Part shown: in pieces, positions 18,194-24,353 of the stretch
Position numbering within the stretch: position 1 is the stretch's first letter
How the letters are laid out: each line of letters begins with the position of its first letter
Assembly: GCA_031082125.1 (NCBI GenBank)
Contig: JAVHLM010000019.1
Coordinates: 62,001-126,000, forward strand
Direction: 5' to 3'
Length of the DNA: 64,000 nt
Origin: Candidatus Eremiobacterota bacterium
Lineage (GTDB): Bacteria > Vulcanimicrobiota > CADAWZ01 > Ess09-12
Made by a program: the position numbers and the translations under genes
Notes under the pieces: model-generated
What the model was told of the DNA's origin: nothing
Seen by the model: the letters and a program-made list of their open reading frames with translations, nothing else
Databases searched by the model: none

Positions 18194-18718
18194 TCAATCA
18201 GAAAAGCTGGCCGCCTTCACCACGAAATAATACTGCAGCGTGACAGGCGTTGAGGAAGTGTCGCCTCTGCGCCATATCTCCACCAGCAGCGTCTTTGCCC
18301 CCTCGTTGATGTTCTTGGGGTTTGCCAGAGCTGTGGCAATAGTTACCTGCTGCCCGGCCCGCGGCATCAGCTCATTGATGGTGGCGCTGTAATAACTGTA
18401 TATCCTGGCCTCCCCGGTCCCCGAATCCCCTGTCACTCCTTTGGGATCCTTCAGCACGAAGGTGACCTGGATGTCCTTGGCGCGCCTGTCGGACCCATTC
18501 TGCACATAGGCTTCAACAACGAGGTTGTTTGAAAAGCTGCTGTCGGTTTTAAGCTTGCAGCTTGTGACCGAGAGGCTTTGAGCTGGATCAGCCTGCGCCA
18601 CGAGAGGAACCGTACTTTCAGAAGAGCCTTGCATGCCGGCAAAACAGGCACCTCGGGGGTTCATGCACCACCACGCAGAGAGCACTGCACATATGACGAT
18701 GAAACGCAATTTTACCAT
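18194..18718 (-). CDS. Secreted protein of unknown function
   Basis: 174 residues with an N-terminal signal peptide (positive 'MVKLRF', hydrophobic core, cleavage probably after 'CFA'). The mature part resembles an immunoglobulin-like beta sandwich: 'NLVVEAYVQNGSDRRAKDIQVTFVLKDP' and a Tyr-rich 'RIYSYYSATI'. No specific family is recognised. The ATG has AAGGAGG upstream, and a promoter with TTGCAA and TATTAT boxes precedes it. Confidence 0.7.
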   Translation of the reverse strand: MVKLRFIVICAVLSAWWCMNPRGACFAGMQGSSESTVPLVAQADPAQSLSVTSCKLKTDSSFSNNLVVEAYVQNGSDRRAKDIQVTFVLKDPKGVTGDSGTGEARIYSYYSATINELMPRAGQQVTIATALANPKNINEGAKTLLVEIWRRGDTSSTPVTLQYYFVVKAASFSD

Positions 18719-18835: not shown

Positions 18836-19687
18836 ATGATGAGCAGACGACCGAAGGATGATAAATCGCCTCTTTACGGCGGCACTGTCCCTCAGGGCCA
18901 GGCGAGCCCGCCCAGGACCATTGTGGGAGGGCGGCCTCCCGAGAAGGAGAAGGCCCTCTCGGGGCTCCCCCAGGGCATCCAGAAGCTCATCATCGCTTCA
19001 TCAATGAACGAGGAATTCAAGGATCGGCTCATGAAGGACCCGATGGCAGCCGCATCTTATCTGGGAGTCACCCTTGCCCCCTCGGAGCAGGCCATTCTCG
19101 CTGCCGTGCCAAAAAGCCAGCTCGTCACCATGATAGACCACATGAAAGTCCCCTCCATTCCGCGGCGCCAGTTCATCAAGAACTCGGCAGCATCGCTCGC
19201 CCTTGCCGCCGCGGCTTCCCTGGGCTTTACCACCGACGCCCTGGGGCAGGTCATCTGCACGGGGATCTCACCCGATAAAGGGGAAGTCCGCACAAGGGGC
19301 ATCTCCTTTGACACTCCCGAGGTGAAATGGCACACGACACTTGAAAGTGCCTTTGCCGAGGCAAAAGAGAAACACATGCCCGTCATGGCCGTGTTCTTCC
19401 TGGTCGATCCCAAAGTGACTCTCCCGCCTGATGTGGTCGAATCGATGAAAGTGTGCTATCTCATCGACAAAAGCCTTCGAAGCTATATAGTGACCGAGGG
19501 CTTTGTGGCCGCAAAGTTCAATGATGAAAAAACAGCGGGTAAATACAAGGTCAAGCAGTATCCTACGGTGGTATTCTTTACTCCCAAAGGAGCAGAGCTC
19601 TCACGGTGCGTCAAGCCCGCAACGAAAGCCGATCTCCAGAAGGCGGCAAAGAGCGCCATGGATGCCTTCGAGAAGAATCCCGAATAA
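18836..19687 (+). CDS. RiPP-leader-like region fused to Tat signal and thioredoxin-like domain
   Basis: 283 residues. Residues 47-104 ('FKDRLMKDPMAAASYLGVTL', 'SEQAILAAVP') resemble nitrile-hydratase-type leader (NHLP/Os1348-like) regions of peptide natural-product precursors. A twin-arginine signal follows internally: R110-R111 in 'PRRQFIKNS' plus an Ala-rich core to about 136. The rest (about 155-280) is thioredoxin-like, with the cis-Pro loop 'KQYPTVVFF', but the CxxC active site is missing ('FFLVDPKVTLPP'), so redox exchange is unlikely. ATG 18836 follows GGGGGAGG. The stop is eight bases before a B12 radical SAM gene, which may modify or depend on it. Function is inferred. Confidence 0.65.
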   Translation: MMSRRPKDDKSPLYGGTVPQGQASPPRTIVGGRPPEKEKALSGLPQGIQKLIIASSMNEEFKDRLMKDPMAAASYLGVTLAPSEQAILAAVPKSQLVTMIDHMKVPSIPRRQFIKNSAASLALAAAASLGFTTDALGQVICTGISPDKGEVRTRGISFDTPEVKWHTTLESAFAEAKEKHMPVMAVFFLVDPKVTLPPDVVESMKVCYLIDKSLRSYIVTEGFVAAKFNDEKTAGKYKVKQYPTVVFFTPKGAELSRCVKPATKADLQKAAKSAMDAFEKNPE

Positions 19688-19695
19688 GAGGCTCC

Positions 19696-21207
19696 ATGAA
19701 GGACATCACCCTGGTCAATCTCAACATGCTCTACGTGCGCCATTTTGACCGCGTGGAGCGGGAATACCACGTACCCCTCGGTCCCCTCTACCTCACGGCG
19801 GCCCTGGAGCGGGAAGGATTCTCCGTTGATTTCAGGGATTACCAGTTCTGCCAGAGCAGCGACCCGTTCTCTGCGGAAGCCATCGTGGATTTTGTCAAAG
19901 AGCCTTCGGAAATCCTGGGATTCTCGGTGATGGCCAATCTCCTCCCCTTCACCCTCATGGCCCTTGAAAAAGTCAAGGAGCGGTACCCCGACAGGACCAT
20001 CATCCTCGGCGGCGTGGGGCCAAAGTCAGTAGAGCGCGCCATCCTGGAGCGCTTTCCATGGATTGACCTCATCGCCGTGGGAGAGAGCGAGCGCTCAGCA
20101 CCGGCACTGGTAAGGACTCTTCAGCAGAAAGGCGATCTCGGCAGAGTGCCGGGAATACTGTACCGCCGGGAGGGGACCATCGTTGAGAACCCCAGGCCGC
20201 CGCGCATCGAAGACCTCGATGCCATTCTATTCCCCGCCTTTCACCACATAGATCTCTCGAAATACGAGGGCTACGGTGTGCTCACCTCAAGGGGGTGCCC
20301 TTACGGCTGCACTTTTTGCTCCGTGGCGCCCATCTGGGACAGGAAAAGCTATTCCCGATCCGCGGAAAATATCGTCAAGGAGATGCGCCTCGTCCACGAG
20401 AAAGCAGGCGCCGACCTTTTTCTTTTCCAGGACGAGTTTTTTGTCTCGTCAAAAAAGCGCGTGCTGGAATTCTGCAGGGTGCTGAAAAAAAGCGGCCTCC
20501 CCTTGTACTGGAAGACCTTCGGACGGGTGGACCTTACTGACGGTGAAACACTCAGGGAAATGGCCCGCGCAGGGTGCCTCGAGGTGCGCTATGGCATTGA
20601 ATCCGGGTCGGCTGCAATCCTGGAGCGCACCAGGAAGGGGTTCACCCCTGAAGAGGCGGTGGCCGTCGTCTCCGAGGCCCTCCGCCACATTCCCCGTGTT
20701 GACACCTTTTATGTCTGGGGCTTCCCCTTCGAGACCATGAGGGATTTCTACCAGTCCCTCTTCCAGATGATCAACTTCCGCACCATGGGAGCCAGGGTCC
20801 TTCCCAGCCTTCTGTGCTTCCTCCCCCAGACCGACATCTACGGCGAATACCGCGGAGATGACAGGTTCACTTTCTGCCCGGACCTCTTCCCTGAGTATAT
20901 GGTGACAGGCCACGAGGTGTGCAGGGGCGCCCGCGCTTCTGTCCTCCCGGCCCACAGGGCGATTTTCCGCTTTATTGAGGAAAACCGAGACCTGTTCCCC
21001 GGCTTTTTCCACTATGCTCTCGCGGAGAATGTGAACCCCAAGCTTGCCCTGCTGCAGGAATTCGGCTTTTACCTGGAAAGCGAGGCGCCGCAGGCCGAGA
21101 CAGACTCTTGCGGAGCGCATTCTCCAAAGGTGAATGCGCAGTTCAAGAGCGACAGACCCGCTTCCTCACCTGCCGCAACGGCAACCGGTTCACGCCGCCT
21201 TGTTTAA
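19696..21207 (+). CDS. B12-binding radical SAM enzyme
   Basis: 503 residues. Residues 1-145 form a cobalamin-binding Rossmann-like domain ('VPLGPLYLTAALEREGF', 'TIILGGVGP'). The radical SAM domain carries the 4Fe-4S motif C201-x3-C205-x2-C208 in 'SRGCPYGCTFC', then 'RYGIESGS'. Such enzymes often do methylations or rearrangements on peptides, tetrapyrroles or lipids; the substrate here is unknown. The start is ATG 19696 (AGAGG upstream); a longer in-frame ORF begins inside the previous gene. The 45-residue tail is Ser/Ala-rich and probably disordered. The tight coupling with the upstream leader-like gene is the main clue. Confidence 0.85.
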   Translation: MKDITLVNLNMLYVRHFDRVEREYHVPLGPLYLTAALEREGFSVDFRDYQFCQSSDPFSAEAIVDFVKEPSEILGFSVMANLLPFTLMALEKVKERYPDRTIILGGVGPKSVERAILERFPWIDLIAVGESERSAPALVRTLQQKGDLGRVPGILYRREGTIVENPRPPRIEDLDAILFPAFHHIDLSKYEGYGVLTSRGCPYGCTFCSVAPIWDRKSYSRSAENIVKEMRLVHEKAGADLFLFQDEFFVSSKKRVLEFCRVLKKSGLPLYWKTFGRVDLTDGETLREMARAGCLEVRYGIESGSAAILERTRKGFTPEEAVAVVSEALRHIPRVDTFYVWGFPFETMRDFYQSLFQMINFRTMGARVLPSLLCFLPQTDIYGEYRGDDRFTFCPDLFPEYMVTGHEVCRGARASVLPAHRAIFRFIEENRDLFPGFFHYALAENVNPKLALLQEFGFYLESEAPQAETDSCGAHSPKVNAQFKSDRPASSPAATATGSRRLV

Positions 21208-21716
21208 ATGTCCTTGAGGTAACTCCCCACGATCTCTCCGAAGTAGACCGTATGATAATCACCGGAGCCGTAATATTTCTCCGTGACCTTGCTGTCGAGC
21301 ATGGCAGGGTTCATGGGCTGCCTGAAGAGGACACGACATTCATAAATCCATTCGCAGTCAGCTATGAATGGTACTGAGACACGCCTGCCCGGCGAGGCCG
21401 TCAGTCCCGTTTCTCTGAATTTATCCACATCTCTTCCCGACTTGGTCCCGCAGAACAGAAGCTCTTTCTTCAGCGAGTTTTCATGGGGAACATTCACCGT
21501 GAACTCTCCCCACTCCTCAATCAATGAAAAGCTGTGGCGTGTTGGCCTTACCAGCACGGTAAAGATGGGAAATTTCCATATGACCGCCACGCTTCCCCAT
21601 CCGATGGTCATGATATTGGGCCTCTCGCGACCCGTCACGAGAAAAACGCCGTCGTCATAAAGACGGACAAGGGTGTGCTGCGCGCCATGATGGTAAGGTA
21701 CTTCCAGAAACATCAT
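21204..21716 (-). CDS. Flavin reductase-like FMN-binding protein
   Basis: 170 residues matching the flavin reductase-like (split-barrel FMN) family: 'VFLVTGRERPNIMTIGWGS' near the N terminus, 'TVLVRPTRHSFSLIEEWGEFTVNVP' and 'GTKSGRDVDKF'. These proteins bind FMN and act as flavin reductases or as partners of oxygenases. The stop overlaps the radical SAM stop on the other strand by four bases, so the two genes converge tightly. Specific substrate unknown. Confidence 0.85.
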   Translation of the reverse strand: MMFLEVPYHHGAQHTLVRLYDDGVFLVTGRERPNIMTIGWGSVAVIWKFPIFTVLVRPTRHSFSLIEEWGEFTVNVPHENSLKKELLFCGTKSGRDVDKFRETGLTASPGRRVSVPFIADCEWIYECRVLFRQPMNPAMLDSKVTEKYYGSGDYHTVYFGEIVGSYLKDI

Positions 21717-22366: not shown

Positions 22367-23317
22367 TCATAAGCCCGCCAGGAATTCCTGGATGCTCTGC
22401 AAGGGTGAGGGCTTCTGTGAGTGATAATCGATGAAGCGGCTCTCATTGGTCACAAGCAAAAGTTTCTGCCAGCGGTAGTCCTTTGATATGACGCGCACCA
22501 GCATATCCCCCCCGTTGTAGGCCCAGTGGCGTCCGTCTGAGTAAAAATGGTGGATCTTTTCGCCCTGCCTCGTCTTGATATGGTGCAAATCGGCAGGTGC
22601 CTCCCAGGAGCAGTCTATGATGAAAAGAAGGGTCTGCCAGAAGCTGCCTGAAGGCAGAAAGCCCTGCGAGATGGCAATCCCTGAGTCGTTGGGAAGGCCG
22701 AAGGCGAGGCAGTGGGGAAGACCGCGGGCGAGACGCTGTATCTGGCGGCGCCTTGCCTGCGAAAAATGGACGGCTGTCACAATGTCGCGTGCAAGGCCAA
22801 TCCCGCAGGCATCAAGGGCTGAATGGCTTATAATCCCTGAAAGATATTCACCAAGCTGATCGGCTCCCGCAGAGAAGCCCACGGTGAGGGCCCCCCGCTC
22901 CTGCCGTGCAATGAGCACTTTCCTGAAAAGATCTCCGTCACCGCAATAGCGCATTCCCATGGCCCGGTAGCGCATCATTCCGAGAAAGCTGCTCCCGCCT
23001 CCGAGCACGACGACCTGCGAGCCATGAAGCATTTTAAAAAAAATATCCAGGTCCTGGTTTCTGAGGTGCTCATTCCAGTAAAAGGGGTAATAGCGGAGGC
23101 CCCTCCCCCTGAAGTGCATATAGTACCACCTGAAGCGGCCATAATCAAAGCGCTGGCCTCTCTGGCTCTTCACGGAGACGGGCAGGTGGAGAATGGTCCT
23201 GTCACCTCTCAGCCCCCTCAAGGCCCTGTCGATGATGAACTCGCGGTGAAGATAGTCACAGCGGTTATGGGAAGAATAAAGCAGCACCGTGGGAAGCATG
23301 GCTATGGCGGTATCCAT
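22367..23317 (-). CDS. S51-like (cyanophycinase/peptidase E-type) protein, copy 1
   Basis: 316 residues. The signature 'VVVLGGGSS' (103-110) followed by 'VGFSAGADQLG' with the probable nucleophile S149 resembles peptidase S51 and cyanophycinases, which cleave Asp-containing di- or polypeptides. The protein is unusually aromatic between 60 and 82 ('FRWYYMHF', 'YYPFYW'). It shares this architecture and many identical segments with the next gene (23424-24353), so the two are tandem duplicates. Start is uncertain between 23317 and 23299. Substrate unknown; no signal peptide. Confidence 0.75.
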   Translation of the reverse strand: MDTAIAMLPTVLLYSSHNRCDYLHREFIIDRALRGLRGDRTILHLPVSVKSQRGQRFDYGRFRWYYMHFRGRGLRYYPFYWNEHLRNQDLDIFFKMLHGSQVVVLGGGSSFLGMMRYRAMGMRYCGDGDLFRKVLIARQERGALTVGFSAGADQLGEYLSGIISHSALDACGIGLARDIVTAVHFSQARRRQIQRLARGLPHCLAFGLPNDSGIAISQGFLPSGSFWQTLLFIIDCSWEAPADLHHIKTRQGEKIHHFYSDGRHWAYNGGDMLVRVISKDYRWQKLLLVTNESRFIDYHSQKPSPLQSIQEFLAGL

Positions 23318-23423
23318 CCTCTGAGAGTATCAAGCCAGGGAAGCAGCGCCTCCCGGTTCTATGGAAAATCAAAAAGGGCGCGCGGCAAAACAGTGCCTGC
23401 GCGCCCCGGCTAAGCCATTGAAA

Positions 23424-24353
23424 TCAGTTGTTGTGCATGATCTGCTCAATGCTGTGATATTCCGAAGGCCACTGGGTCCAGTAGTCTATGTACTGCCCCT
23501 GGTTGGTGATGACGGTGATATCCTGATAGAGGTTGTCCTGCGACATGACCCGGACCATCATGTCCCCGCCGTTGAAGGACCAATGCCTGCCGTCATTGTA
23601 GACATGCTGAATCTTGACTCCCTGCCTGGTCTTGATATGGAACTGGTGCTGGGGCACATCCCAGGAATTGTCGGTAATGAACCATATGGCCTGGAAGATA
23701 TTCCCCGAGGGGAGATAGAACTGGTGGGTGCCAATGCCTGAGTCATTGGGCAGGCCGAAGACCATGCAGTGGGGCAGGTTCCCTGCAAGGTGCCATATCT
23801 CCCCTTCCCTTCCATGCTCGAAGTGAAGGGTCGTCACGACATTGCGCGCCAGGCCGAACCCATGAGGATCGTGAAGATGGCTGCTCGCCACCTCGCAGAG
23901 GTACTGGCCGAGCTGATCAGCCCCGGCGGAAAAGCCCACGGTGAGAAGGCCCCTGTCCTGCCGCTCATGGAGGATCCTCTCGAAAAGATAATGGTCGTTG
24001 TAATACCAGTCTCCCAGGGCCTTGTAGCGGCCGAGACCCAGGGAGCTGTTGCCTCCTCCCAGCACTACCACCTCGGAACTCCAGAGCAGATGGAAAAAGA
24101 GGTCTATATCCTCCCTCCTGAGATGGTCATCCCAGTAGAAGGGGAAATACTGGAGGCCCCACTGGCCAAAGCGGTCGTAATACCATCTGAAATTGTTGTA
24201 GTCCCATTCCTGGCTTGCCCTGCTGCGCTGCGACATGGGAAGGTGCATGAGCGTCTTGTTGTGCCAGCTCTGAAGGGCGCGCTCGATGATAAACGAGCGG
24301 TGAATGTATTCACAGCGGTCATGGGCAGAATAAATCAGTGCAGTCGGTTTCAT
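23424..24353 (-). CDS. S51-like (cyanophycinase/peptidase E-type) protein, copy 2
   Basis: 309 residues, a close paralogue of the downstream gene. Nucleophile S142 lies in 'VGFSAGADQLG', preceded by 'VVVLGGGNSS'. Shared C-terminal segments include 'HIKTRQG', 'DGRHW' and 'GGDMMVRV'. AAAGGAG precedes the ATG. A double-hairpin repeat lies just upstream. The family link to S51 is based on the GxSAGA and GGG motifs; overall similarity to characterised enzymes may be low. Confidence 0.75.
   Translation of the reverse strand: MKPTALIYSAHDRCEYIHRSFIIERALQSWHNKTLMHLPMSQRSRASQEWDYNNFRWYYDRFGQWGLQYFPFYWDDHLRREDIDLFFHLLWSSEVVVLGGGNSSLGLGRYKALGDWYYNDHYLFERILHERQDRGLLTVGFSAGADQLGQYLCEVASSHLHDPHGFGLARNVVTTLHFEHGREGEIWHLAGNLPHCMVFGLPNDSGIGTHQFYLPSGNIFQAIWFITDNSWDVPQHQFHIKTRQGVKIQHVYNDGRHWSFNGGDMMVRVMSQDNLYQDITVITNQGQYIDYWTQWPSEYHSIEQIMHNN

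Follow-up and report, generated by a model that had tools for sequence, protein, structure and literature searches.

Leader-guided radical SAM chemistry is a route to peptide natural products, and in the proteusins the substrate carries a leader of the NHLP clan, while cobalamin-dependent radical SAM enzymes at large also cyclise, ring-contract or dehydrate. The proteusin peptide is C-methylated by a B12 radical SAM methyltransferase (PMC5682303), ApyD beta-methylates a tyrosine of a RiPP precursor (PMC11117315), and the substrate of MgmA is methyl-coenzyme M reductase, in which it C-methylates a glutamine (PMC11796369). For Os1348, a small stand-alone protein, the neighbours are a SagB-type dehydrogenase and a HEXXH-domain protein, and the paper concerned makes no mention of a radical SAM enzyme (PMC7726476). 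Here I compare with these systems a pair of adjacent genes, A and B, found in a 64,000-nucleotide stretch of a Candidatus Eremiobacterota genome (the window), and argue that the two are probably substrate and enzyme.

Architecture of the A/B unit

Between the TAA of A and the ATG of B lie 8 bases (19688-19695), the spacing given by an earlier sequence-only reading of this DNA, and A and B form a two-gene unit (Table 1), flanked by predicted ORFs of the other strand at 18194-18718 and 21204-21716. Protein A begins with an unstructured N-terminus that contains TIVGGRPP, continues with a helical domain and the signal PRRQFIKNSAASLALAAAASLGF (residues 109-131), and ends, after CTGISPD and TRGISFDTP, with a C-terminal domain. 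Elsewhere in the window, at 22367-24353 on the minus strand, two adjacent paralogues of 316 and 309 aa have GFSAGADQLG in common, and I take them to resemble serine-peptidase/cyanophycinase-type proteins.

Table 1. Genes A and B and their parts, in window coordinates.
Feature	Positions	Strand	Length or residues	Basis or remark
Gene A, leader/export signal/GIxPD motif/thioredoxin-like protein	18836..19687	+	283 aa	ATG at 18836; ORF
TIVGGRPP motif, start of leader region	18917..18940	+	28-35	35-row leader alignment
NHLP-clan (Os1348-like) helical leader domain	18965..19147	+	44-104	NF038399, AlphaFold, 6LK7
Twin-arginine-type export signal (RRQFIK + hydrophobic stretch)	19160..19249	+	109-138	TIGR01409
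Motif copy 1, CTGISPD	19256..19276	+	141-147	fits G[IAS][RSQ]PD
Motif copy 2, TRGISFDTP	19292..19318	+	153-161	degenerate: T-R-G-I-S-x-D-x-P, Pro to Phe
CxxC-less thioredoxin-like domain	19319..19684	+	162-283	PF00085, four-relative profile
Gene B, B12-binding radical SAM enzyme	19696..21207	+	503 aa	ATG at 19696
Cobalamin-binding domain of B	19765..20109	+	24-138	PF02310
CPYGCTFC = CxxxCxxC [4Fe-4S] motif of B	20296..20319	+	201-208	sequence
C-terminal tail SCGAHSP of B	21106..21126	+		conserved among homologues

The N-terminal segment of A is a real leader-type domain of the NHLP clan. The NCBIfam model NF038399 ('Os1348 family NHLP clan') matches residues 57-98 (E 2.8e-6) with 27.3 bits, under a curated cut-off of 40 bits that a relative at L063 passes (46.9), the NHLP leader model TIGR03793 matches weakly (E 0.009), and a profile of 59 upstream proteins from other genomes, with the window excluded, finds A with an E of 4e-32. 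An AlphaFold model made with 32 sequences shows a confident helical bundle at residues 46-102 (pLDDT 90-98), the signal as a long helix and the motif region at low confidence; when it is submitted to Foldseek, the Os1348 crystal structure 6LK7 is the top PDB match (probability 0.99) and thioredoxin-fold proteins rank after it with weak scores. Searched against PDB sequences, the leader family profile likewise finds 6LK7 first (E 1.8e-6), followed by nitrile hydratase alpha subunits and NHLP leader peptides. IVG is invariant in the 35-row leader alignment, where the T is kept in more than 90% of rows; the TIVGGRPP pattern occurs once in the window's genome, and no NCBIfam model covers the leader family as such. 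The sequence-only reading had called this segment precursor-like and named a lack of similarity to leader models as grounds against the idea; NF038399 and TIGR03793 both match.

Two further parts that it had proposed, an internal twin-arginine signal and a thioredoxin-like domain without CxxC, are also found. The twin-arginine model TIGR01409 gives A 14.7 bits, under a cut-off of 16.7 that the relatives L059 (17.5) and L095 (17.0) exceed, and the window's genome encodes TatC (PF00902, E 4.8e-61). A hydrophobic segment directly follows the helical domain in 96 of 100 leader proteins, with RRx[FLMVI] in 42 and a lipobox-like Cys in 34. For the C-terminal domain, PF00085 stays under gathering (E 0.0099) and a profile of L061, L064, L096 and L192 reaches an E of 3e-8; the only cysteines in A are 141, 207 and 258, with no CxxC among them, and an oxidoreductase role is therefore unlikely.

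The assignment of B as a B12-binding radical SAM enzyme is secure, with Radical_SAM PF04055 (E 1.4e-18) and B12-binding PF02310 (E 4e-10) both above gathering and with Cys 201, 205 and 208 of the CxxxCxxC motif invariant in 18 homologues; the SCGAHSP tail pattern recurs in 67 of 80. The closest NCBIfam model is that of ApyD (NF050148, E 1.7e-48), at 165.5 bits against an equivalog cut-off of 750, the MgmA model (TIGR04014) scores 86.3 bits against 360, and no NCBIfam model is above its cut-off for B. Pfam finds no RRE-type (PqqD) domain in the protein, so that binding of a leader is not accounted for in this way. By sequence profile the closest solved structure is MgmA 9CCB (E 7.8e-25), and by fold (model pTM 0.83) OxsB and then MgmA.

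Co-occurrence of leader and enzyme

Because A alone as a query found nothing clear in the 148 genomes of the window's phylum, where the leader is present in one (the window's own), the scan of GTDB r220, one genome per species and blind to A, started from B aligned to a pair of distant homologues; the family came to light by this route only. The scan yielded 80 loci, the best of them 60-63% identical to B, with 16 phylum labels in the tree, including Myxococcota, Planctomycetota, Riflebacteria, Armatimonadota, Spirochaetota, Chloroflexota, Elusimicrobiota, Lentisphaerota, Kiritimatiellota, Verrucomicrobiota, Zixibacteria and others. The genomes are mostly metagenome bins, gene starts are ORF-based throughout, and since the GTDB scan relied on two peptide patterns the cassette family is larger than listed here. 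At nearly all B loci the protein directly upstream has TIVGGRPP, the helical domain and the hydrophobic segment. The window's type of B is encoded at 70 of the 80 loci, 66 of which have a leader protein, inside the locus (63) or elsewhere in the genome (L091, L104 and L120); at the remaining four (L064, L092, L132 and L135) the contig breaks off within or ahead of the upstream gene, with a GIRPD-type motif still visible at the contig edge of L064. The nearest leader gene ends a median of 22 bp upstream of B (61 loci), and more than one leader gene is present at 20 loci.

The seven relatives of B that have no tail (L122 and L125-L130, from Desulfobacterales and neighbours) belong to genomes without a leader protein, which is absent too from the outgroup loci L133, L136 and L137. 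Upstream of these seven is a protein with a Sec-like signal and a nearly invariant C-terminus, RTPSAVAGVRG; it probably represents another type of substrate, targeted at its C-terminus, for this SCGAHSP-less sister subtype. An in-frame TGA in the Desulfobacterales B genes, considered as recoding, proved to be an ordinary stop overlapping the next gene.

Across 392 Planctomycetota genomes, in which B of the window's type was called at E below 1e-230, eight have both genes, one has the leader only and none has B only (Fisher P 7e-16, or 8e-11 without three already known genomes). The single genome with a leader and no B, G351 (L190), may owe this to bin incompleteness or loss. The pair is thus conserved in relatives, and the absence of co-occurrence that the sequence-only reading had held out as its refutation did not come about. 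Pairwise leader and B distances correlate (r 0.715, where 2000 permutations reach at most 0.249), meaning that the two travel together, which is not proof of binding and could be explained by joint inheritance alone. Clustering of neighbouring ORFs gives no third conserved gene (protease, transporter or RRE), its most widespread cluster being antisense shadow ORFs of B. The leader is absent from viral scans, whose sole radical SAM relative is 26% identical, and at the thresholds used there are no plasmid or phage records with B.

The window's genome has three leader proteins and one B. The two others (C29 and C13) match the 59-protein profile with E 2e-17 and 4e-14; the two, at L040:6754-7359 and L041:6867-7709, have neither an export segment nor a radical SAM neighbour and carry degenerate motifs (TGIDAEYPG in the former, TRGVNADYP and TRGISAHHD in the latter). 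One B for three leader proteins suggests action in trans, although both distant copies are degenerate and devoid of an export segment. This genome also encodes, at L055:7385-7567, an Os1348-type protein of 60 aa that stands alone (NF038399, 36 bits) and shows no obvious core.

Other loci met during the survey are of a different make. At L188:10405-10969 small Cys-repeat peptides (CREGCKEGCKDGCKDGC) lie within a few kb of a PqqD-like gene and of distant B homologues in tandem, in what appears to be a radical SAM RiPP locus of its own. L039:3362-7264, from a relative in the window's phylum, is a different RiPP-like cluster in which PqqD, a SPASM radical SAM protein and a B homologue of 37% identity follow one another, and at L038:7598-8341 a protein of CVTHNN/CIAHYN repeat units, with no match in Pfam or NCBIfam, stands beside several radical SAM/SPASM genes.

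The GIxPD motif and competing readings

What stays constant in A-type proteins is TIVGGRPP, the helical leader and the hydrophobic export segment, usually with copies of G-[IAS]-[RSQ]-P-D-x-P behind the latter. Behind the leader, the 4-mers met most often are GIRP (38 of 97 proteins), IRPD and TRGI, where shuffles reach a maximum of 9. Leader proteins contain 153 instances of G[IAVSTLM]xPD in 15,072 aa and other ORFs 41 in 300,326 aa (10.2 against 0.14 per 1000 aa, or 74-fold), and the strict form [TSA][RKEMQ]?G[IAS][RSQ]PDxP is present 54 times against none, an enrichment that is only descriptive because the motif was derived from the same data. Conservation is the stronger argument: in orthologue pairs from loci whose B are at least 68% identical, identity is 74% at the G, P and D of the motif and 40% at other G, P and D. 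A protein may hold up to five copies, often with Pro-rich linkers between them, and 35 of the 97 leader proteins have no strict copy; searches of the open-licence literature found no description of the motif strings.

Behind the signal the mature parts vary, from motif-bearing Pro-rich sequence alone to thioredoxin-like, PHB-esterase-like, acyl-carrier-like, TonB_C/AgmX or T2SS-G/BiPBP_C domains, and at L192:4773-6137 GIRPD motifs are placed before the leader, after the signal, and inside and behind the thioredoxin-like domain. Since relatives carry other folded domains or none, and the cysteines of the domain are not kept, while the short motif recurs, the GIxPD motif is the likely target on sequence grounds, and the thioredoxin domain or Cys, which the sequence-only reading had favoured, was dropped as a general target.

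From what is directly seen (leader homology, adjacency and co-occurrence, motif enrichment and conservation, the export segment) I consider it probable that A and B are an enzyme-substrate pair in which the leader guides modification of the motif before export. B would recognise TIVGGRPP and the helical leader at the N-terminus of A, an element read as its docking site because it is found at every testable locus and is tied to one B subtype. In the cytoplasm it would then modify the flexible G-[IAS]-x-P-D-x-P behind the export signal, that is CTGISPD and TRGISFDTP in A, and my guess is that the reaction would most likely be C-methylation at an sp3 carbon, favoured because this is what the closest characterised relatives of B, MgmA and ApyD, carry out. 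The order of leader, export signal and mature part would place this step before export, whereupon A would leave through Tat, and other members as lipoproteins or Sec/Tat substrates, with leader and signal left behind or cut off; mature A would comprise the modified motif and a thioredoxin-like domain without a redox-active CxxC. An oxygen-sensitive B, in other words, probably recognises a handle on its partner and alters G-I-R-P-D-x-P before that partner leaves the cell. Leader-directed modification ahead of export was already the proposal of the sequence-only reading, and this part stands, given a real leader, a conserved pair and a fitting order of parts; the target has changed, and the description as an unusual protein-scale modification must be tempered by a precedent, the action of MgmA and Mmp10 on methyl-coenzyme M reductase (PMC11796369, PMC5943407).

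A wider version of the same idea is more tentative, namely that one B, a transplantable NHLP-type leader and a GIxPD motif modified both in cis and in trans may amount to a general bacterial system for protein tagging. It is possible, though less likely than not, that many different exported or surface proteins are marked in this way and that the modified motif, not a released product, is the function; if so, the motif might act outside the cell as, for instance, an anchor, a cross-link or a recognition tag.

The opposite view, that this is an ordinary multi-core RiPP whose GIRPDxP repeats are core peptides cut out and released, with incidental folded domains, is unlikely: an NHLP leader with a radical SAM enzyme is classical RiPP grammar, the linker-separated repeats would suit it, and distant homologues of B do sit in PqqD-containing RiPP-like clusters, but no peptidase or transporter gene is conserved in the neighbourhoods, the precursor contains an export signal, and in L062, L095 and L192 folded domains stand behind or between the motif copies. 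I also find it rather improbable that A serves as a scaffold or partner through which B reaches another substrate or the membrane, with the motif as a sorting or interaction signal read by something else, as a single B often comes with several leader proteins (the 20 loci above and the window's own genome) and no third gene is conserved, even if a leader at the far N-terminus would remain cytoplasmic and the motif is missing from some leader proteins. Modification of the folded thioredoxin-like domain or its Cys, for which one may cite the presence of the domain in A and four relatives and the protein-level chemistry of MgmA, is very improbable: most leader proteins have no such domain, B is 56-63% identical where they do not, and the relatives with the domain have not retained Cys 141, 207 and 258. 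A chance pairing of neighbours or a mis-read domain can be set aside as negligible: the Os1348, Tat and thioredoxin scores of A are each under a curated cut-off, but the independent-genome profile (E 4e-32) and the near-perfect co-occurrence rule it out.

Comparison with described systems

Among the closest systems in design are the proteusins, where the polytheonamide pathway (PoyA/PoyB/PoyC) includes a cobalamin radical SAM enzyme as here, and where the defining combination of an NHLP-type leader protein and a B12 radical SAM enzyme in one locus is the one found in A and B. In contrast to proteusins, the A/B family has an export signal after the leader, a folded protein can make up its mature part, the proposed target is a repeated GIxPD motif, and the cassette has two genes only; moreover, B has CxxxCxxC, whereas PoyB and PoyC are given as Cx7CxxC. 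ApyD, to whose NCBIfam model B comes closest, is likewise a B12 radical SAM enzyme that acts on a RiPP precursor, but it carries an RRE, sits in an MNIO/P450 cluster and has another type of precursor. MgmA, like the proposed B, modifies a protein and not a peptide natural product, but it is archaeal and methylates a Gln of McrA, not a repeated motif. Os1348 (NF038399, 6LK7) corresponds to the leader domain of A in both sequence and fold. The CUAEP/CCAEP-tail radical SAM proteins (NF040546) have, by name, a fixed Cys-containing C-terminal tail as B does, but the tail of B is SCGAHSP and its score is 51 bits against a 500-bit cut-off.

The A/B cassette is apparently undescribed, as no curated family or paper was found for it and searches of the open-licence literature gave no description of NHLP combined with Tat/lipoprotein signals and radical SAM. 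The same leader logic would here be applied to whole exported proteins in about 16 phyla, mostly uncultured, and if the motif is modified, bacterial export proteins would have a post-translational modification of a new class; a short motif, a portable leader and a single enzyme would also be an attractive means of adding C-methyl or other radical modifications to proteins of choice. NHLP leaders working with B12 radical SAM enzymes are already known from the proteusins, and modification at the level of the protein from methyl-coenzyme M reductase, so that what is new is the combination: a leader ahead of an export signal, a repeated GIxPD motif, exchangeable domains and only two genes, spread over some 16 phyla.
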